Assembly: GCF_900091435.1 (NCBI RefSeq)
Contig: NZ_FMCS01000007.1
Location: 186,001-250,000 of the forward strand
Length of the DNA: 64,000 bases
From: Micromonospora chaiyaphumensis
GTDB lineage: Bacteria > Actinomycetota > Actinomycetes > Mycobacteriales > Micromonosporaceae
Reading direction: 5' to 3'
Position 1 is the stretch's first letter, and every line of letters begins with the position of its first letter. The position numbers and the translations under genes are program-made. Shown piece by piece: positions 32,448 to 45,912 of the stretch. The notes under the pieces were generated by a model. That model worked only from the letters and a program-made list of their open reading frames with translations. It did no database searches and was not told where the DNA came from.

Positions 32448-33956
32448 CTATGCGTCGGCTGTGGATCCGGGCAGCCGCACCGTGAAGACGGTCGCACCGG
32501 GCCGGCTCGCCACCGCGACCTCGCCGTGGTGGGCCTCCACCACCGCGGCGACGATGGCCAGGCCGAGGCCGGTGCTGCCGTGCGCCCGGGAGCGGGAGCT
32601 GTCGCCGCGGGCGAACCGCTCGAAGACCTCCGCTTGCAGCTCCTCGGGGATGCCGGGGCCGTCGTCGGTGACGCTCAGCTCGACGCCGCCGGGCACCGGC
32701 GCGAGCCGGGTGGTCACCGTGGTGCCGGGCGGGGTGTGCACGCGCGCGTTGGCGAGCAGGTTGGCCAGCACCTGGTGCATGCGGTGGGCGTCGCCGGTGA
32801 CGCTCACCGGCTCGTCGGGCAGGTCGAGCTGCCAGCGGTGCTCGGGGCCGGCCACGTGCGCGTCGCTGACCGCGTTGACCACCATGGCGGTGAGGTCGAC
32901 CGGCTCGGCCGCGAGCGGGCGGCCGGAGTCGAGGCGGGCGAGCAGCAGCAGGTCGTCGACGAGGCTGGTCATCCGCGTGCTCTCCGACTCCACCCGGCGC
33001 AGGGCGTGCGCCACGTCGGGCGGCACCTCGTCCCGGCCTCGCCGGGCCACCTCGGCGTAACCGCGGATGGCGGCGAGGGGGGTGCGCAGCTCGTGGCTGG
33101 CGTCGGCGACGAACTGGCGTACCCGCGTCTCGCTGGCCTGCCGGGCGGCGAGCGCGGCGGCGACGTGGCCGAGCATCCGGTTGAGCGCGCCGCCGACCTG
33201 CCCGACCTCGGTACGTGGGTCGGTGTCCACCTCCGGCACCCGCACTGACAGGGCCACCTCGCCCCGGTCCAGCGGCAGCTCGGTGACGCGAGCGGCGGTG
33301 GCGGCGACCCGGTTCAGCGGGCGCAGCGCGGCCCGCACGATCAGCGCGCCGAGCCCGCCGGCGATGATCAACCCGGCGGTGACCAGCCCAGCCTGGGCGA
33401 CCAGCACCCACATGACGGTGTCCTGGACCCCGGCGAGCGGGATGGCGTAGATCGTCACGTCGCCGTCGGGCATCTGCCGGGCGAACGCCCGGTAGTCGCC
33501 CCGGGCACCGACGTCCACGCTGTGCGGTCGGCCGTCGGTGGGCACGTCGGCCAGCTCGCCGACATCGGCCGCCGACAGCGCCTCGGCGATCCCGCTCTCC
33601 GCCCGGATTCCGGCGGTGGTCGCTCCGGTCTCGGGAACCCGGACCGCGATCGAGCCCGGTGGGAATCCGCGCGGCGGTTCCGGCACGGCCGAGCCGTCGC
33701 CCGGCTGATTCAGCCACGGCGGGTCCCCGCCGCCGCGGAAGGGCGGCCCATTGTCGGGCCGGCGGTCGCCGCCGAGCTGGTTGTCGACCTGGCCGACGAG
33801 GAAGTGCTGCAGGGCGATCGTGGTCAGGCCGCCGATGCCGACGCTGACCAGGGCCAGCAGCGCCACCACGGAGAGCACCAGGCGGCGGCGCAGCGACCAC
33901 CCGGCCAGCCGCCGCTGCAGTCGCCCGCCCCGGTCACTCCGCGGGCTTGAGGACAT
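32448..33956 (-). CDS. two-component sensor histidine kinase
   Basis: This 502-residue kinase has two transmembrane helices (about 25-50 and 180-205) bracketing a ~130-residue extracytoplasmic sensor. A HAMP domain follows, then HisKA with the phospho-acceptor in FVADASHELRTPLAAI and a HATPase domain with ANLLANARVHTPPG (N box), DDGPGIP (G1) and STGLGLAI (G2). It overlaps the regulator gene by 23 bp, so the pair is coupled. The same transcript probably continues into the two glycosyltransferase genes. Confidence 0.93.
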   Translation of the reverse strand: MSSSPRSDRGGRLQRRLAGWSLRRRLVLSVVALLALVSVGIGGLTTIALQHFLVGQVDNQLGGDRRPDNGPPFRGGGDPPWLNQPGDGSAVPEPPRGFPPGSIAVRVPETGATTAGIRAESGIAEALSAADVGELADVPTDGRPHSVDVGARGDYRAFARQMPDGDVTIYAIPLAGVQDTVMWVLVAQAGLVTAGLIIAGGLGALIVRAALRPLNRVAATAARVTELPLDRGEVALSVRVPEVDTDPRTEVGQVGGALNRMLGHVAAALAARQASETRVRQFVADASHELRTPLAAIRGYAEVARRGRDEVPPDVAHALRRVESESTRMTSLVDDLLLLARLDSGRPLAAEPVDLTAMVVNAVSDAHVAGPEHRWQLDLPDEPVSVTGDAHRMHQVLANLLANARVHTPPGTTVTTRLAPVPGGVELSVTDDGPGIPEELQAEVFERFARGDSSRSRAHGSTGLGLAIVAAVVEAHHGEVAVASRPGATVFTVRLPGSTADA

Positions 33957-34674
33957 AGCCCGCCCCGCGCAGGGTGTGGATCATGGGCTCCCGGCCCGCG
34001 TCGATCTTCTTGCGCAGGTACGAGATGTACAGCTCGACCACGTTGGCCTGGCCGCCGAAGTCGTAGTTCCAGACCCGGTCGAGGATCTGCGCCTTGCTGA
34101 GCACCCGGCGCGGGTTGCGCATCAGGTAGCGCAGCAGCTCGAACTCGGTGGCGGTGAGGTTGATCAGGTCACCGCCGCGGCGTACCTCGTGGCTGTCCTC
34201 GTCGAGGCTGAGGTCGCCGACGGTGAGCACGGCCTCCTCGCGGGCGGCGACCGCGAACCCGGAGCGGCGCAGCAGGGCGCGCAGCCGGGCGATCACCTCC
34301 TCGAGGCTGAACGGCTTGGTGACGTAGTCGTCGCCGCCGACGGTGAGCCCGGCGATCCGCTCCTCGACCGCGTCCCGGGCGGTCAGGAAGAGCACCGGCA
34401 CGGTGGGCGCCTGCTCGCGCAGCCGGCGCAGCACCTGGAAGCCGTCCAGGTCCGGGAGCATCACGTCGAGCACCACGGCGTCGGGCTTGACCTGCCGGGC
34501 GGCGCTGATCGCCGCCATCCCGCTGCCGGCGGTGGTCACCTGCCAGCCCTCGTAGCGCAGCGCCATCGAGAGCAGGTCGGTGAGTGTCGGCTCGTCGTCC
34601 ACCACCAGCACCCGCACCGGTTCGCCGTCCGGTCGCCGCAGCTCGATGCGGCCCTGCGCGGCCTGCCCGTTCAT
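33934..34674 (-). CDS. OmpR/PhoB-family response regulator
   Basis: This 246-residue protein has a receiver domain with VVDDEP, phospho-acceptor Asp in VVLDVMLPDLDG, FLTARD and YVTKPF. The C-terminal winged helix contains INLTATEFELLRYLMRNP and VVELYISYLRKKID. I choose ATG 34674 because GGGAG lies seven bases upstream; the same GGGAG is only 1 nt before ATG 34680. It partners the overlapping kinase. Upstream lies a four-unit CTGT array in the form expected for an OmpR-family dimer, so autoregulation is likely. Confidence 0.92.
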   Translation of the reverse strand: MNGQAAQGRIELRRPDGEPVRVLVVDDEPTLTDLLSMALRYEGWQVTTAGSGMAAISAARQVKPDAVVLDVMLPDLDGFQVLRRLREQAPTVPVLFLTARDAVEERIAGLTVGGDDYVTKPFSLEEVIARLRALLRRSGFAVAAREEAVLTVGDLSLDEDSHEVRRGGDLINLTATEFELLRYLMRNPRRVLSKAQILDRVWNYDFGGQANVVELYISYLRKKIDAGREPMIHTLRGAGYVLKPAE

Positions 34675-34702
34675 GACCATGCTCCCATCGTGGGCGCACC
34701 CG

Positions 34703-34739
34703 CTGTGCCGGTCCTGTCCCGGTCCTGTGTACCAGCTGT
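34703..34739 (-). promoter_or_regulatory. four CTGT/ACAG half-sites phased at exactly 11 bp
   Basis: CTGT on the plus strand (ACAG on the gene strand) starts at 34703, 34714, 34725 and 34736. The inner two units share the longer word CCGGTCCTGT. An 11-bp period is one helical turn and is how PhoB/OmpR-type regulators bind tandem boxes (the E. coli Pho box core is CTGTCAT with 11-bp spacing). The array lies 29-65 bp before the regulator start codon. Confidence 0.6.
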
Positions 34740-34790
34740 GCGGGCCGGGCGCCGGGATCCCGCGCGGACCGGGCGCCGGAGGGCGGACGC

Positions 34791-34805
34791 ACAGCCGGAC
34801 CACAG
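34791..34805 (+). promoter_or_regulatory. second, oppositely oriented pair of ACAG half-sites (11-bp phase)
   Basis: ACAG occurs on the plus strand at 34791-34794 and 34802-34805, again 11 bp apart but facing the plus-strand ApbE remnant at 34850. It may be a second site of the same regulator. Confidence 0.4.
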
Positions 34806-36547: not shown

Positions 36548-37495
36548 ATGAGGACGCTGGGCGGGCGGTACGAGCTCGAACGGCGCGTCGGCATCGGCGG
36601 GATGTCCGAGGTGTGGCGGGCTCACGACCTCGTGCTCGACCGGACCGTCGCGGTGAAGCTGATCTCGCCGGGCCTGGACGGGGAGGCCACCTCGGTGGAG
36701 CGGATCCGGGGCGAGGCCCGCTCGGCGGCCCGGCTCGTGCACCCGAACGTGGCCAGCGTGCACGACTTCGGCACCGCCGCGCTGCCCGACGGGCGCGCGG
36801 TGCCGTACATCGTCATGGAGCTGGCCGAGGGCGAGACCCTCGCCGCCCACCTGCGCCGCGGCCGGCTGGACTGGCGGATCGCGGTGCGGGTCTGCGCCGA
36901 GGTGAGCGCCGCGCTGGCCGCCGCGCACGCGCACGGCATCGTGCACCGGGACGTGAAGCCGGCGAACGTGATCCTCACCCCGGCCGGGGTGAAGGTGCTC
37001 GACTTCGGAATCGCCACCCCGGCCGGCGCACCCGACCACACCCCGGACGGGATCGTGGTGGGCACGCCCGCGTACCTGGCGCCGGAGCAGCTCGACCGGC
37101 AGCCGGCCACCCCGGCGGCCGACATGTACGCCCTCGGCGTGCTCCTCTACTACTGCCTGACCGGCCGGCTCCCGTACGCGGCCGACAGCACCACCCAGCT
37201 GCTCGGCTCGGGGCGGCGCCGGCCACCCGAGCCGCTGCCCGACATCGACGGGTTGCCGGGCGAGGTGGCCGACCTGTGCCGGCGCTGCCTCGCCACCGAT
37301 CCGGCCGCCCGGCCGAGCAGCCTGATGGCCGCGCTGCTGCTCGCCGAGGTGGTCGACGCCAGGGTCTACGTGCCGATGGTCGCGACGCTGCCCCGCCAGC
37401 GCGACGCCGCCGTGTCGGCGTGGACCGACCGGGCGGCCGCCGAGGCGACCGAGGCGTTCGCCGTCGAGGCGCAGCCGACCGGCCCGGCCCGCTGA
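36548..37495 (+). CDS. soluble Ser/Thr protein kinase (Hanks type)
   Basis: This 315-residue kinase has the Gly-rich loop VGIGGMSEVW, ATP-binding Lys in VAVKLI, catalytic loop HRDVKPANV, DFG in VLDFGIATP and the GTPAYLAPEQ activation segment, all within residues 8-260. It lacks the transmembrane helix and PASTA or other sensor domain usual in Pkn proteins, so it is cytosolic. A SigB/SigF-type promoter lies just upstream, making stress induction likely. Its substrates are unknown. Confidence 0.9.
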   Translation: MRTLGGRYELERRVGIGGMSEVWRAHDLVLDRTVAVKLISPGLDGEATSVERIRGEARSAARLVHPNVASVHDFGTAALPDGRAVPYIVMELAEGETLAAHLRRGRLDWRIAVRVCAEVSAALAAAHAHGIVHRDVKPANVILTPAGVKVLDFGIATPAGAPDHTPDGIVVGTPAYLAPEQLDRQPATPAADMYALGVLLYYCLTGRLPYAADSTTQLLGSGRRRPPEPLPDIDGLPGEVADLCRRCLATDPAARPSSLMAALLLAEVVDARVYVPMVATLPRQRDAAVSAWTDRAAAEATEAFAVEAQPTGPAR

Positions 37496-40127: not shown

Positions 40128-40613
40128 TCAGGCGGCGCTGCGCTCGGCGGTACCGCCGGGTGGCACGCCCGCGGCGGCGGTCGGCGTGTCCGGGGGCACG
40201 GTGTCGCCGCGTACCCCGGCGAGGATCTCGTCGACGCGGGCCTCGCGCCGACGGCGGGCCAGCAGCGCCGCCTCGAAGTCCCGGCGCGCCCGGACCGCAT
40301 CGGCGTAGGCCTGCTCGCGCACCCGGCGGGCCTCCTCGCGCGCGGCCTCCAGCTCGCCCCGGGCCTCGGCCAGCAGCCGGGCGGCCTCGCGCTCGGCGGC
40401 CGTGCCGGTGGCCGTGTCGCCGTCCACGGCGGCCGTCCGGCGGCGCAGGAAGTCGCAGAGGTGGGTCGCGTCCTCCCGGATCAGGTCCCACTCGCGGCCG
40501 GCGCCGGCGCTCTCCGCGCGTGCCGCGAGCCGGACCAACCGGATTCCCAGCTCATCCAGGCAGGAGTCCACCTGCCGCTGGTCGTAACCGGTCTCAACCA
40601 CGGAGAACCTCAT
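40128..40613 (-). CDS. DivIVA-like coiled-coil protein
   Basis: This 161-residue protein opens with MRFSVVETGYDQRQVDSCLDEL, which resembles the membrane-binding N-terminus of DivIVA/Wag31-family proteins (GYDxxxVDxxL). It continues as a long charged coiled coil (residues 70-130, AREEARRVREQAYADAVRARR) with a low-complexity tail. In actinobacteria such proteins mark poles or curved membrane. At about 160 residues it is shorter than Wag31, so a paralogue or septal accessory is likely. It is convergent with the lysozyme-like gene. Confidence 0.7.
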   Translation of the reverse strand: MRFSVVETGYDQRQVDSCLDELGIRLVRLAARAESAGAGREWDLIREDATHLCDFLRRRTAAVDGDTATGTAAEREAARLLAEARGELEAAREEARRVREQAYADAVRARRDFEAALLARRRREARVDEILAGVRGDTVPPDTPTAAAGVPPGGTAERSAA

Positions 40614-40733: not shown

Positions 40734-41180
40734 TCAGGGGTGCTTGGGGAGCACGACCACCCGGCCGAAGAACTCGTCGATGCGGCGCACCACGTCGTTG
40801 AAGTCGTCCAGGTCGATCGGCTTCGTCACGTACGCGTTGGCCTGGAGGGTGTAGCTGCCGAGGATGTCCGTGTCGGCGTTGGAGGTGGTCAGCACGACGA
40901 TCGGGATGGTGCGCAGGTCCTCGTCCCGCTTGACCTCGCCGAGCACCTGGCGCCCGTCCATGCGCGGCATGTTCAGGTCGAGCAGGATGACGTCGGGCCG
41001 CCGGGCCTCGGTGTGCCGGCCCTCGCGGCGGAGGAACTCCATCGCCTCCTGGCCGTCGTTGACCACGTCGATGACCTTCTCGACGTCCGAGTCCTCGAGC
41101 GCCTCCTCGATCATCAGGACGTCGCCCGGGTCGTCGTCCACCACCAGGATGCGAACGGGGCTCGGGGTGCCATGACCCAT
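40734..41180 (-). CDS. single-domain response regulator, Rcp1-like
   Basis: This 148-residue stand-alone receiver domain has ILVVDDDPGDVLMIEEAL, phospho-acceptor Asp in VILLDLNMPRMDG, the switch Thr in VVLTTSNADTDI and Lys in VTKPIDLDDF. The DDPGDxLLI start and long beta4 insertion are typical of the Rcp1 group, receivers that pair with phytochromes or hybrid kinases. With no output domain it must act by protein contact. It lies 72 bp downstream of the STAS gene on the same strand, probably as the last gene of the PP2C-B12-STAS set. Confidence 0.88.
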   Translation of the reverse strand: MGHGTPSPVRILVVDDDPGDVLMIEEALEDSDVEKVIDVVNDGQEAMEFLRREGRHTEARRPDVILLDLNMPRMDGRQVLGEVKRDEDLRTIPIVVLTTSNADTDILGSYTLQANAYVTKPIDLDDFNDVVRRIDEFFGRVVVLPKHP

Positions 41181-41252
41181 GGGACTACCTGCTTCGTCTC
41201 GGAGGTGGAGCGCCGACGGCGAGGTCGACTGCTGGCGGGGAAATCTATCCGA

Positions 41253-41600
41253 TCAGGAGGCGGCCGGAGTGGCCGGGTCGGCCGGCTCCGCCTCGTGGCG
41301 CAGCACCTCGGCCAGCCCGGTCACCTGGAGCACCCGGGCCACCCGCCCGGTCGCTCCGGTTATCCGCAACCAGCCGCCGTCGGCGGCGGCGAGGTTGTCG
41401 CCGCGGACGAACGCGGCGATGCCGGTCGAGTCGCAGAAGGTCAGCTCGGTGAGGTCCAGCAGCAGCTCACGGTGCCCCTCGGCGAACAGCCGGTCGATGG
41501 CCGCGTTGAGTTCGGGCGCGGTGCTCAGGTCGAGCTCACCCGCGAGCCGGAGGCGGGCCGGACCGCCGTCCCGCTGGCCGTGCGTGACGGTGAAGGTCAC
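41253..41600 (-). CDS. STAS-domain anti-anti-sigma factor
   Basis: This 115-residue protein is a single STAS domain (RsbV/SpoIIAA type). It has LRLAGELDLSTAPEL near the start and LLLDLTELTFCDSTGIAAF, whose Ser in DSTG is the regulatory phosphorylation site. Dephosphorylated STAS proteins bind the anti-sigma kinase and free the sigma factor; the neighbouring PP2C phosphatase is the obvious activator. GTG 41600 behind AGAGGGG is the start, though the frame is open 16 codons further. It follows the cobalamin-binding gene on the same strand. Confidence 0.88.
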   Translation of the reverse strand: MTFTVTHGQRDGGPARLRLAGELDLSTAPELNAAIDRLFAEGHRELLLDLTELTFCDSTGIAAFVRGDNLAAADGGWLRITGATGRVARVLQVTGLAEVLRHEAEPADPATPAAS

Positions 41601-41687
41601 CGTGGCCCCTCTCGATCCCACCGCAGGCCGACCCTTGCAGTGCAGCAAGTATAAGCAGGTCCGCCCGCCGCGCCCGCACCCCGACGG

Positions 41688-42737
41688 TCACCGTTCCGGC
41701 ACGGCGGACAGCCCGCCGACCAGCGCACGGGCCCGGTCGAGGAACCGCCCGGCCCGGGGGAAGTCGTGCAGCCGCTGTCCATAGTGGTCGAGGGTGAGGG
41801 CGACCGCGCCGGCCGGGACCCGGCGGCTCACGAGGATCGCCACCAGCCACTCGACGAACTCGGTGAAGAGGGTCTCGTCGTCGACGTAGAGGGCGGCGGC
41901 GAGGAAGTCGACGATGTAGCCGAGGTCGCTGACGGTCGAGTCGAGCTGCGCCGGGGTGTAGTGGCGCACCCCGGGCACCCGCTCCCGCAGGTCGGCCAGG
42001 GCGCTGTCGATCAGCTCACCGCGCCGCTTGGCCAGGCTCGCGTACTCGTCGTCGGCGAGGTGGTCGAGCCGGGCGGGCGGCACCGCGCGCAGTGCCCGCT
42101 CGTCGGCGACCAGGTCGGCGGCGGTCGGCGCGTCCGGCGCCCAGGGCACGCCGAGCACCCGGGCCCAGCGGCCGTCGCCACCGAAGCCGCGCCCACCCAC
42201 CACCACCGGCACGTCGGAGCGCCGGCACGCCTCGATCATGCGGTGCGCGTGGGGCAGCCGCATCGGCAGCGCGCAGGCGAGGGCGACCGCGTGCGCGTCG
42301 TACCGGTGCAGGTAGGACACCAGGTGGGCGGCGGGCACGCTCGCCCCGAGGAAGGTGATCTGCCAGCCGCGCAGCCGCAGGACCTCGGCCACCAGCCGGG
42401 CGGGCAGCGCGTGCCACTCGCCGTCCATGCAGGCGACCACGATCCGGCCGCGGGTGGGGCGGGGATCGGCGTACGCTGCCACGGCCGCCACCACCCGCTC
42501 GCTGATGTGGGTGGCGGCGTGCTCCTGGGCCACGCTCCACTCGTCGCGCGCCCACCGCTCCCCCACCTCGGCCTGGGCCGGGGCGACCAGATCGAGCAGC
42601 ACCCGCTCGGCCGGCACGCCGGACTCCAGCAGCCCGCGGGCCACCTCGACGGCGGCGTGCTCGTCGGCCTCGGCGAGGCACTCCAGGTAGCCGGGGAAGG
42701 CCTGGGCCGGGTGGGCCTCGGTGGTCGTGGCGGTCAC
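41688..42737 (-). CDS. cobalamin-binding protein with CarH-type light-sensor signature
   Basis: This 349-residue protein has a four-helix cap domain (residues about 15-90) and a B12-binding Rossmann domain (95-215). The cap carries W62-x9-E72-H73 (WARDEWSVAQEH), the Wx9EH signature of CarH-type photoreceptors that bind adenosylcobalamin. The Rossmann domain has E107-x-H109 (DGEWHALP), where the His would be the lower axial ligand. It lacks the MerR DNA-binding domain of CarH; instead a C-terminal helical domain (about 245-345) of unknown role is attached. GTG 42737 overlaps the phosphatase stop by 4 bp. It may pass a light or B12 signal to the phosphatase or STAS partner. Confidence 0.85.
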   Translation of the reverse strand: MTATTTEAHPAQAFPGYLECLAEADEHAAVEVARGLLESGVPAERVLLDLVAPAQAEVGERWARDEWSVAQEHAATHISERVVAAVAAYADPRPTRGRIVVACMDGEWHALPARLVAEVLRLRGWQITFLGASVPAAHLVSYLHRYDAHAVALACALPMRLPHAHRMIEACRRSDVPVVVGGRGFGGDGRWARVLGVPWAPDAPTAADLVADERALRAVPPARLDHLADDEYASLAKRRGELIDSALADLRERVPGVRHYTPAQLDSTVSDLGYIVDFLAAALYVDDETLFTEFVEWLVAILVSRRVPAGAVALTLDHYGQRLHDFPRAGRFLDRARALVGGLSAVPER

Positions 42738-44536
42738 GCGTCGGTCTCCCTCGTTCGGTCGGTGCCGACCGGCCCGGGCACCGCGTGCAGGTGGCGGCCC
42801 GGGCGGCCCGGGGTCGTCGCCCGCAACGCGAGCACCGCGATGTCGTCGTGGTCGCCGTGGCCGAGCCAGTCGCAGGTCACCTGCTCGACCCGCTCGGCCA
42901 GCGCCGGGGCCGGCATCCGGTGGCAGCCGGTCACCGCGTGCAGCAGCCGCTCGGCGCCGAACTGCTCCTCGCCCCGCCGGCCGCCGCGCGCCTCGGTCAC
43001 CCCGTCGCTGTAGAGCAGGCAGGTCTCACCCGGGGCCAGGTGCACGGTGACCTCGCCGATCCGGGGATCCGGCACCACGCCGATCAGCATCCCGCTCAGC
43101 GGCACGACCTCCACCTCGCCGGAGGCCAGCAGCACCAGGGGCGGGAGGTGACCGCCGCCGGCCATGGTCAGGGTGAGCCCGCCGTCGCGGTGGGGGCGCA
43201 CCACGCCCAGCACCATGGTGGCGAACCGGCCCTGCCCGTGCGCCTGGGTGGTTTCCAGCAACGCGTCGTTGAGCAGCTTCAGCAGCCGCGCCGGCTGCGA
43301 CTCGACCCGGTGCAGCGCGTGCAGGCACTGGCGGAGCTGGCCGGTGAACACGGCCGCCTCCACGCCCTTGCCCGAGACGTCGCCGAGGAAGAAGACCGAG
43401 CCGCCGTCGACGAGCCGGTGCGAGCCGTAGAAGTCGCCGCCGATCCGCAGCCCGGCCTGCGCCGGCCGGTAGGCGGTGCCCCACTGCACGCCCTGGGCCG
43501 CCGCCGGCTCGACGGGCAGGAGACTCGCCTGGAGGGTGTCGGCCACCTCGGCCTGGTCGCGGTAGAGCAGGGCGGTGGTGAGCGCGGCGCCGGCCCGGGC
43601 AGCGAAGGCGCGGACCAGGTCGAGGTCGGCCTCGTCGTGCCAGCGGCCGGCCCGGCGGGCGACCAGCAGCACCCCGGCCGGGGCCTCCCGGCCGGGCAGC
43701 GGCACCACCCGGGCGGTGGCGCCGGCCTCGTCGAGCCCGGGCAGCCAGCCCGCCTCGACGGCCTGCTCGACCAGCCAGTCCAGGGCGTGCGGCTCGGCGC
43801 CGCCGAGCCCCTCCTCGATCGCCGACGGCAGCGCCGCGGCGGCGAGCACGCCGCTGTCCACGGCCGGCGACGGCTCCAGGTCGCGGCGCGGCGTCAGACG
43901 CGCCGAGCTGAAGTTGTCGCCCGCATCGTCGTCCGCGCGCACCGCCCGCCACCACCGGGCCCGGCCGGAGCGCGGGGCCAGCACCAGCACGGCGACGTCG
44001 GCCACGGTCGGCACGGCCAGCCGGACCACCGCGGCGGCGGCGCGGTCGGGATGCAGGGGGTTGCCGAGCTTCTCGCCGACCACGGCGAGGAACGCCGAGC
44101 GGGCCCGCTCGGCGAGCAGCGCGTCGGCGCGGCTGACGCTCTCGGTGACGTCCTCGACGTACCAGCAGCGACGACCGGCGGAGAGCGGGACCCGGCGCAG
44201 CCGCAGTCGCCGGCCGTGATGGGTGAACTCGCCCGGGTCGTCGCCACCGAGCGCGGCAACGCCCGCCGCGGCGAGGACCTCGCCGGGCACCACCTCGGGG
44301 ACCAGCCGCTCGGCCACCGGGCTGAGATGCCGCACCACCCCGTCGGCGTCGCAGACGATCAGACCCTCGCGGAAGTGCTCCACCACCTCCGACCAGCCGG
44401 GGGTGGCCGGGCCGCGGTCCGGGGCCAGGGGCGGCAGCGCCGGCTCGGGCGGGGACCACGCCCGAGCCCGTTGGGCACCCGGCGTGGAGATCCGTCCGTC
44501 GCCCGGGTCAGCACCCCTGACGTCGGCAGCAGTCAC
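42734..44536 (-). CDS. PAS-GAF-PP2C (SpoIIE-type) phosphatase
   Basis: This ~600-residue phosphatase has a PAS domain (EGLIVCDADGVVRHLSPVAE), a GAF domain in the middle and a C-terminal SpoIIE/PP2C domain. All metal-binding aspartates are present (IGGDFYGSH, FLGDVSGKG, YSDGVTEA, DDIAVLAL). It should dephosphorylate STAS anti-anti-sigma factors in response to its sensor domains or the B12 protein. There is no RsbW-type kinase domain. An in-frame 54-bp repeat (43867-43920) inserts FSSARLTPRRDLEPSP into the GAF region. I start at GTG 44536; TTG 44596 extends it 20 residues. It overlaps the B12 gene by 4 bp. Confidence 0.88.
   Translation of the reverse strand: MTAADVRGADPGDGRISTPGAQRARAWSPPEPALPPLAPDRGPATPGWSEVVEHFREGLIVCDADGVVRHLSPVAERLVPEVVPGEVLAAAGVAALGGDDPGEFTHHGRRLRLRRVPLSAGRRCWYVEDVTESVSRADALLAERARSAFLAVVGEKLGNPLHPDRAAAAVVRLAVPTVADVAVLVLAPRSGRARWWRAVRADDDAGDNFSSARLTPRRDLEPSPAVDSGVLAAAALPSAIEEGLGGAEPHALDWLVEQAVEAGWLPGLDEAGATARVVPLPGREAPAGVLLVARRAGRWHDEADLDLVRAFAARAGAALTTALLYRDQAEVADTLQASLLPVEPAAAQGVQWGTAYRPAQAGLRIGGDFYGSHRLVDGGSVFFLGDVSGKGVEAAVFTGQLRQCLHALHRVESQPARLLKLLNDALLETTQAHGQGRFATMVLGVVRPHRDGGLTLTMAGGGHLPPLVLLASGEVEVVPLSGMLIGVVPDPRIGEVTVHLAPGETCLLYSDGVTEARGGRRGEEQFGAERLLHAVTGCHRMPAPALAERVEQVTCDWLGHGDHDDIAVLALRATTPGRPGRHLHAVPGPVGTDRTRETDA
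43867..43920. repeat. 54-bp dispersed repeat, copy B, inside the PP2C gene
   Basis: This copy matches 34892-34945 at 51 of 54 positions. Because 54 is a multiple of three and one strand has no stop, it adds 18 codons to the GAF domain without breaking the phosphatase frame. The flanks share no target duplication that I can be sure of. Confidence 0.8.
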
Positions 44537-44743
44537 CAGCTGAGCCCCACTCCTTGTCGATACCCGCGGTCCACCGGCAGCGGCGCGTATGGTCAAATCT
44601 CTCCGCCCACCCTACGCCGGTGTACCGGTACCGCCACCTCACGGCCGACGGCCCGGCCTGCGGACGCGCCACCCGGCAGGCCCGTACCGGGCTTGTTACG
44701 ATCCGGGAACGACCCGGCCCGGCCGGCAGCGCGGAGAGGCGTG

Positions 44744-45139
44744 ATGGTGGCATCCCGACGGAGAACGCCCGAGGCGACACCGCTCACCATCTCCGTGGAC
44801 CGCTCCGATCCGGGGGTGCCGGTCATCCGGATCGGCGGTGATCTCGCCTTCGCCACGGCCACCCCGCTGCGCACCGAGGTCGACCGGCTGCTGGCCGGGG
44901 CCCCGCGGACGCTCGTGCTCGACTTCCGCGACCTGATCTTCATCGACAGCACCGGCCTGTCGGTGATCGTGCACGCCTGGCGGCACGGCCAGCAGAGCGG
45001 GACCGCCATCCAACTCTGGGAGACGCCCCGCTTCCTGGCGACCATCCTCGACATGACCGGTGTGGCCGGCCTGCTGACCCGGCCGCAGCCCGACGGCCGG
45101 TCCGACCGGCCCGTACCGGGCTCGTCCGCCCTTGCCTGA
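44744..45139 (+). CDS. STAS-domain anti-anti-sigma factor
   Basis: This 131-residue STAS protein has IRIGGDLAFATATPLRTEV and the regulatory serine motif LVLDFRDLIFIDSTGLSVIV. ATG 44744 lies five bases after GGAGAGG. It is divergent from the PP2C gene and 46 bp upstream of another STAS gene in the same direction. The ~20-residue tail (QPDGRSDRPVPGSSALA) is unstructured. Confidence 0.87.
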   Translation: MVASRRRTPEATPLTISVDRSDPGVPVIRIGGDLAFATATPLRTEVDRLLAGAPRTLVLDFRDLIFIDSTGLSVIVHAWRHGQQSGTAIQLWETPRFLATILDMTGVAGLLTRPQPDGRSDRPVPGSSALA

Positions 45140-45185
45140 GCACCCCGGGGTTTCCCGGACCGGTCCGAGCTGGAAACATGGCCGT

Positions 45186-45533
45186 ATGCCCGCGCAGCTG
45201 TTGACCATCGAGGTGGACCGGCTCGACGCCGGCCGTGCCCGCCTTCGGCTGACCGGCGAGCTGGATTTCGCCACCGCGCCGGAGCTCGTCGCCGCCGCGG
45301 CCGAACTGCGCCGCGACGGCTGCCACGAGCTGTTGCTCGACTTCGCCGGGGTGGCGCTCTGCGACTCCTCCGGCCTCAGCGCCCTGGTGGTCATCCACCG
45401 GGCCGGCGCGGGTCCGGTGCGGCTGGACGCCGTGGGCCCGCAGGTGCGGCAGCTCCTCGACCGCACGGGGCTGGCCGAGCTGCTCGCCGTCCCGCCGCCC
45501 GGGGAGACCGGGGCCACCCGCGAGGCCGGCTGA
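45186..45533 (+). CDS. STAS-domain anti-anti-sigma factor
   Basis: This 115-residue single STAS domain has LRLTGELDFATAPEL and LLLDFAGVALCDSSGLSAL, where DSSG is the phosphorylation site. It is the second of two tandem STAS genes and the third STAS protein in the cluster. ATG 45186 is chosen because the fold begins immediately after it; the frame is open 18 codons upstream. Confidence 0.87.
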   Translation: MPAQLLTIEVDRLDAGRARLRLTGELDFATAPELVAAAAELRRDGCHELLLDFAGVALCDSSGLSALVVIHRAGAGPVRLDAVGPQVRQLLDRTGLAELLAVPPPGETGATREAG

Positions 45534-45597: not shown

Positions 45598-45912
45598 TCA
45601 GGCGGCGGGCGTGGCCTGCAGGCGCGGGCCGGACTCGCGCAGCTCCCCCACCGTGGGCGACGCCGCGTCCTCCGGCGTGCCGGAATCAGGCGTCTGGAAC
45701 AGGTAACGGACGAACTCCCCACCCGCCTCGTTGTCGTCGGCTCCCGGCCACTGCCCCACACAGTCGACGCCGACGACCTCACGTCCGGTGCCGTCGATCT
45801 CCTCCAGCAGCGCCCAGAGGGTCACCGGGTAGCTGCGGGTGCCACCCGGGTCGACCTGCCACCGGGCGTACCAGCCGGGCCGGGCGGGGACGATCTCCAC
45901 GATCCGTTTCAT
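45598..45912 (-). CDS. conserved hypothetical protein (104 aa)
   Basis: I do not recognise a family. It begins MKRIVEIVPARPGWYARW, with a compact beta-rich start and the GVDCVGQWPGADD segment, then a low-complexity acidic tail. No signal peptide or membrane helix is seen. It is divergent from the DUF2267 fusion gene. ATG 45912 is the first start that gives this compact protein; the frame upstream is open but empty of signal. Confidence 0.6.
   Translation of the reverse strand: MKRIVEIVPARPGWYARWQVDPGGTRSYPVTLWALLEEIDGTGREVVGVDCVGQWPGADDNEAGGEFVRYLFQTPDSGTPEDAASPTVGELRESGPRLQATPAA

Follow-up and report, generated by a model that had tools for sequence, protein, structure and literature searches.

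A stand-alone photocobilin gene paired with a PP2C phosphatase gene in Micromonospora chaiyaphumensis and other Actinomycetia: a candidate light input to partner switching

What does a B12-binding protein with the marks of a light sensor do among genes for partner-switching regulators? The question is raised by a locus of Micromonospora chaiyaphumensis (NCBI RefSeq assembly GCF_900091435.1) at positions 40734-45533 of a 64,000-nucleotide stretch, positions 186,001 to 250,000 of contig NZ_FMCS01000007.1, which was analysed as a whole and is called the window here. The original prediction for this DNA described a six-gene module in which a PAS-GAF-PP2C phosphatase, a CarH-type B12 protein, a STAS protein and an Rcp1-like receiver share one strand and two further STAS genes are divergent, and it proposed that light or B12 status gates the phosphatase. 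An open reading frame (ORF) check and a Pfam scan found all six ORFs where that prediction had put them, with SpoIIE/PP2C, two B12-binding, three STAS and one receiver domain as their Pfam content. The minus-strand transcription order is PP2C, B12 protein, STAS 1 and receiver, with STAS 2 and STAS 3 divergent on the plus strand, and the GTGA overlap claimed for the first two genes is exact (Table 1). We report that the module is real and strongly conserved, that its B12 protein is by sequence and model a photocobilin, a member of an already published family (Nat Commun 2024, PMC10979010), and that the core appears to be two co-translated genes, one for a PP2C-type serine phosphatase with PAS/GAF-like domains and one for a photocobilin that stands alone. 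We think it reasonably probable that this RsbU/RsbP-like phosphatase works on STAS proteins and is dedicated to the photocobilin, its light-dependent partner.

The identity of the B12 protein rests on several agreeing comparisons. Against PDB sequences its best phmmer match is SasPcob (8J2W/8J2X; E 2.3e-101, residues 18-339). AbPcob comes second (8.9e-47), and CarH structures match much more weakly, at about 1e-10. An AlphaFold model built from 39 orthologues (predicted local distance difference test, pLDDT, 93.8) matches SasPcob 8j2w with Z 39.7 and a root-mean-square deviation of 1.9 over 327 residues at 53% identity. Window residue numbers are those of SasPcob plus one, and the B12 contacts W62, E72, H73 and H109 (SasPcob W61, E71, H72 and H108) are present, as are the biliverdin contacts H138, D271 and W297 (His137, Asp270 and Trp296). 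The light-type signature W62-x9-E72-H73 and E107-x-H109 had been read correctly in the original prediction; it is nearly invariant among homologues, and the model places the Wx9EH site in the CarH/photocobilin cap fold. An alignment of 83 homologues from the class Actinomycetia has D271 in 80, W297 in 82 and H138 in 81. Full-length homology to SasPcob and conservation of every B12 and biliverdin contact checked thus point to a photocobilin. It had also been seen rightly that the protein lacks a DNA-binding domain: no MerR-type domain was found, Pfam giving just B12-binding_2 and B12-binding, and the protein starts at the cap. Without such a domain we reject its membership of CarH, whose NCBIfam profile it matches at 61.7 against a cut-off of 400. 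The C-terminal helical domain had been called novel; by phmmer and by the match of the model to biliverdin-bound smURFP (6fzn, Z 15.7) and to phycocyanin, this region is the known phycobiliprotein-like globin of photocobilins, which carries biliverdin. Two divergent homologues (L167 and L168), in which the chromophore residues are mostly or partly replaced (REHRSYR and WEHHRFW at seven checked sites), are possibly light-blind or misaligned.

In the dark, SasPcob holds adenosylcobalamin (AdoCbl) and biliverdin in a head-to-tail dimer; green light acting via B12 or red light acting via biliverdin breaks the cobalt-carbon bond, and with loss of the adenosyl group the dimer opens (PMC10979010). 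From the conserved residues and fold, the window photocobilin would likewise hold both chromophores in a dark head-to-tail dimer, and green or red light would cleave its cobalt-carbon bond, release adenosyl and open the dimer. Biliverdin would be a second chromophore that the original prediction overlooked, so that a response to red besides green light would be expected. The protein might instead be mainly a sensor of AdoCbl status or redox state, with a biliverdin pocket that goes unused in this species. The PF01126 haem oxygenase was not found in the window genome, which is listed as 100% complete, and it is absent from 31 of the 65 photocobilin-bearing genomes of the class, the window genome included; in addition, AbPcob functions with little biliverdin. 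We nevertheless consider such a B12-status or redox role quite unlikely, since all 17 photocobilins checked from 15 genomes that lack PF01126 retain all of the contact residues, D271 and W297 among them, as if the biliverdin pocket were under selection, and since the window genome has other, weak candidates for haem degradation, one PF14518 protein (41.7 bits) and one DUF2470 protein (31.6 bits). The missing haem oxygenase does not contradict light sensing, because AdoCbl alone gives a green-light response (PMC10979010), and an AdoCbl-forming adenosyltransferase is present in the window genome. Co-occurrence of photocobilin and haem oxygenase genes was set aside as weak (odds ratio 1.8; p 0.04, uncorrected for relatedness).

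Of 395 genomes sampled from the class, 65 have a photocobilin gene, as do 105 of 201 from the family, and the neighbourhood of the gene is nearly constant in one respect. We examined 160 Actinomycetia loci, 80 of them drawn from whole genomes and the other 80 being named GTDB loci. The two sets overlap in some genomes, the loci were picked among the better query matches and many are related, so the counts are not independent. In 159 of the 160, from many families, a PAS/GAF-like PP2C gene immediately precedes the photocobilin gene on its strand while the flanking genes vary, and 131 of these 159 pairs have a 4-base [AG]TGA stop/start overlap, which likely reflects translational coupling. Genera with the pair include Micromonospora, Asanoa, Actinoplanes, Herbidospora, Planobispora, Sphaerisporangium, Nonomuraea, Streptomyces, Nocardiopsis, Pseudonocardia and Mycobacterium, so the gene order is kept far beyond Micromonosporaceae. 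Outside the class, none of the 11 full-length photocobilin loci (L290, L292-L301) has a PP2C gene within about 1.5 kb, and a GGDEF-motif ORF adjoins the photocobilin in 3 of them, in agreement with the published cyclase fusion. The receiver is what it had been taken for, with phmmer matches to the phytochrome-linked receivers Rcp1 (1i3c, E 3.8e-34) and RcpA (1k68, E 8e-36), but it lies near the photocobilin in 54 of 55 Micromonospora-type loci versus 1 of the 105 others. It is thus a genus-level neighbour in Micromonospora and not part of the core, and we reject it as a module member outside that genus.

Some loci depart from the simple pair. Tandem photocobilin genes follow one PP2C gene (PP2C, two photocobilins, STAS) in L145 (7033-9145) and L146, and several Micromonospora genomes have a second photocobilin locus with a PP2C gene on each side (L188, L189 and L190). 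The window genome keeps another PP2C of module type on contig C6 (L322:7806-9448; compare L188), without the photocobilin gene that comes after it in sister species; about 1.1 kb of genome G197 is replaced there by about 65 bases, between flanks that are 86-88% identical. Long frames that might have been photocobilin-PP2C fusions (for example 1810 amino acids in L187) gave B12 domains alone in Pfam, and we discard them as probably chance GC-rich frames.

The catalytic domain of the phosphatase is certain (Pfam SpoIIE, E 6.7e-43), and the gene likely starts at GTG 44536, upstream of which lies a conserved AAGGAG ribosome-binding site. Its metal-site motifs (GGD, GDV, DG and DD, with G386-G387-D388, D406, D531 and D584-D585) are invariant in 39 orthologues, and its AlphaFold model (pLDDT 84) has its best fold matches in the RsbU domain of Rv1364c (Z 26.6, the best), SiaA (Z 26.1), SpoIIE and RssB. 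Given these motifs and the RsbU/SpoIIE/RssB fold, we expect the protein to be an active phosphatase. In the AlphaFold layout, numbered over 620 amino acids, a PAS-like part (about 67-150), a helix (151-177), a GAF-like part (183-314), a long helix (322-358) and the PP2C domain (368-597) follow one another. Of the PAS-GAF-PP2C architecture in the original prediction, the PP2C domain holds; the GAF domain is sub-threshold in Pfam here and above threshold in one homologue, and the PAS domain has no profile match. The AlphaFold secondary structure is compatible with both, in an N-terminal part that the fold search barely covered. In a tree of PP2C proteins, from which the closest paralogue in the window genome (C6:115734, 42%), itself of module type, had been left out, the module phosphatases of different families form a group that leaves out almost every PP2C paralogue of the window genome.

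How might the sensor act on this enzyme? The long helix that precedes the PP2C domain resembles the linker that controls RsbU, where binding of a partner to the N-terminal part orders the helical linker and so lets the PP2C domains dimerise (PMC12143880). Regulation of an enzyme in trans by stand-alone photocobilins has been seen in vitro (PMC10979010). The light-changed photocobilin could accordingly bind or release the N-terminal PAS/GAF/helical-linker part of the phosphatase and alter its dimerisation and activity, in the way that RsbT acts on RsbU and that RsbQ is proposed to act on RsbP. Both direct contact between the two proteins and the direction of control are our inference from these comparisons; by analogy with the photocobilin-diguanylate cyclase enzyme, light is likelier to turn the phosphatase on than off. 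Alternatively, the photocobilin could act on a STAS protein, an anti-sigma kinase or an unrelated partner and be merely co-expressed with the phosphatase. STAS genes do flank it, lying within 3.3 kb in 120 of the 160 loci, an RsbW-like gene stands just upstream of the PP2C gene in some loci, and in stressosomes the sensory domains sit on STAS proteins. It is the STAS and kinase neighbours that vary, however, and the tightly overlapping PP2C gene that is constant, and we regard a STAS, kinase or unrelated target as unlikely.

The counts of PP2C and STAS neighbours bear out the partner-switching setting that had been proposed. All three STAS proteins of the locus carry a phospho-acceptor motif (D-S-T-G in STAS 1 and 2, D-S-S-G in STAS 3), which we take to align with that of SpoIIAA, and phmmer matches STAS 2 to the SpoIIAA (1th8/1auz) and RsfB (8ih8) structures. 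The phosphatase would remove phosphate from the phospho-serine of these neighbouring STAS proteins, which, once dephosphorylated, would bind a kinase of the RsbW type whose gene lies elsewhere in the genome and so free a SigB/SigF-family sigma factor. A search of the window genome for the last two components, suggested in the original prediction, returned three SigB/F/G-family sigma factors over the cut-off and many RsbW-like (HATPase_c_2) proteins. Some 6 kb before the window start (L180, C2:176500-180420) there are genes for a STAS protein and an RsbW-like ATPase, with a STAS gene and a SigB/F-family sigma factor gene nearby on the other strand; together these form a candidate output circuit. 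Elsewhere, an RsbW-like ATPase is near 22 of the 105 non-Micromonospora loci, and the order STAS, HATPase, PP2C, photocobilin recurs in L136, L138, L156-L158 and L195.

The phosphatase might instead feed another STAS-controlled process (exopolysaccharide, antibiotic or development) in the manner of SiaA and SiaC. The window locus has no sigma gene, the PP2C model matches SiaA (above), and STAS/PP2C circuits in actinomycetes often have no tie to SigB. What speaks for a sigma factor as the output is the arrangement of other loci. L191 has, on one strand, genes for a sigma factor of the SigF family (SigBFG, 254 bits against a cut-off of 234), a STAS protein, an anti-sigma-type HATPase, the PP2C, the photocobilin and a second STAS protein, and in G073 an RsbA-like ATPase gene stands beside the module and a SigB/F sigma gene about 10 kb away. 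An output other than a sigma factor therefore seems to us rather doubtful. The L191 photocobilin appears to lack the biliverdin Asp.

Since the photocobilin gene is joined to a stress-type phosphatase gene in nearly all relatives, light probably controls a stress switch. Several observations weigh against our proposal that the photocobilin is the phosphatase's light-dependent partner. The pairing is evidence of co-inheritance and not of mechanism; no photocobilin-PP2C fusion was found among the loci examined; and the C6 phosphatase, kept without the photocobilin of a sister species, indicates that such enzymes can do without one. The PAS/GAF-like domains of the phosphatase may themselves carry the main signal. 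On the output side, 40 of the 105 non-Micromonospora loci have no STAS gene nearby, and neither an RsbW kinase gene nor a sigma factor gene is present in the window locus. On the input side, the want of a canonical haem oxygenase makes biliverdin loading in vivo uncertain.

A link to partner switching is already in print as a prediction, for gene-neighbourhood and STRING analysis suggested that photocobilins interact with STAS/SpoIIE/PP2C proteins, Micromonospora yangpuensis being among the genomes used; the function of stand-alone photocobilins was called unclear, and in vitro cross-regulation of a foreign cyclase alone was demonstrated (PMC10979010). Our literature search, in an incomplete library, found no experimental follow-up of that prediction. 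New here are the dedicated PP2C partner with its overlapping gene across the class, a core that no longer includes the receiver, and one complete array with a sigma factor gene. The near-universal, apparently translationally coupled neighbour gives stand-alone photocobilins a concrete target, with STAS dephosphorylation as its readout, and loci with complete SigF-containing arrays are places to study the entire circuit. The findings suggest that one photosensor is coupled to a stress-type phosphatase in one actinobacterial class and to cyclic di-GMP enzymes in certain others, and they prompt the question of how bacteria that lack haem oxygenase obtain the bilin. More tentatively, and with somewhat less than even confidence, we suggest that Actinomycetia stand-alone photocobilins are dedicated light-dependent activators of one orthologous PP2C lineage, a light-driven equivalent of RsbT or RsbQ, which would give soil bacteria green-to-red control of SigB/SigF-type responses, the bilin often being made without a canonical haem oxygenase.

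Table 1. Features of the photocobilin locus (window coordinates)
Feature	Position	Strand	Remarks
PP2C (SpoIIE-type) phosphatase	42734..44536	-	about 600 amino acids from GTG 44536; ORF reaches TTG 44596
Photocobilin, 349 amino acids	41688..42737	-	B12 cap (helix bundle), Rossmann B12 domain, C-terminal biliverdin-binding globin (residues about 225-346), predicted
GTGA stop/start overlap of PP2C and photocobilin genes	42734..42737	-	read from sequence
STAS protein 1, anti-anti-sigma type	41253..41600	-	STAS_2 E 7.9e-17; likely GTG start 41600 (read from sequence), ORF to 41648
STAS protein 2, divergent from PP2C gene	44744..45139	+	Pfam STAS E 2.5e-13
STAS protein 3	45186..45533	+	Pfam STAS E 2.1e-12; ATG 45186 (read from sequence) likelier than ORF-opening TTG 45132
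Rcp1-like single-domain receiver	40734..41180	-	Response_reg E 1e-21
Divergent intergenic region, PP2C / STAS 2	44537..44743		blocks GCGTAGG.TGGG and GGATCGTAACAA conserved (PP2C sense)

The intergenic blocks come from an alignment of 35 sequences from Micromonospora and relatives, and no clear SigB-type promoter motif (GTTT/GGGTA) was seen among them. Two small genes adjoin the module in most Micromonospora loci, one at 40128-40613 (minus strand), which has no Pfam match over the cut-off, and one at 45598-45912 (minus strand). Further off are a gene for a serine/threonine protein kinase, at a distance of about 4 kb (36548-37492, plus strand), and an ordinary two-component pair of a HAMP histidine kinase and a receiver/Trans_reg_C regulator (32451-34803, minus strand).

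Among known systems, the stand-alone SasPcob of Saccharothrix syringae has the same domain order and the same B12 and biliverdin contact residues as the window protein, which comes from another species, one whose genome lacks a canonical haem oxygenase. AbDPcob, a photocobilin-diguanylate cyclase fusion, shares the photosensory unit, but there the output is a fused GGDEF enzyme and the biliverdin Asp is replaced by His, whereas the window protein keeps the Asp and has a separate PP2C as its putative partner. The CarH/LitR repressors have in common with it the B12-binding core with W-x9-EH and E/D-x-H (29% identity, Z about 20); unlike them, it has no MerR DNA-binding domain and has an additional biliverdin globin. 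On the phosphatase side, Rv1364c of Mycobacterium tuberculosis (PAS-RsbU-RsbW-STAS) has the fold closest to the window PP2C domain, but it fuses kinase and STAS, which in the window are separate or absent. Finally, the RsbT-RsbU and RsbQ-RsbP pairs of Bacillus subtilis resemble the window locus in having a separate partner encoded with the PP2C and, as predicted here, STAS substrates, and their N-terminal sensory domains and helical linker have PAS/GAF-like and helical counterparts in the window model; they differ in that no RsbT or RsbQ homologue was seen in the window locus, where the partner would be a light sensor.

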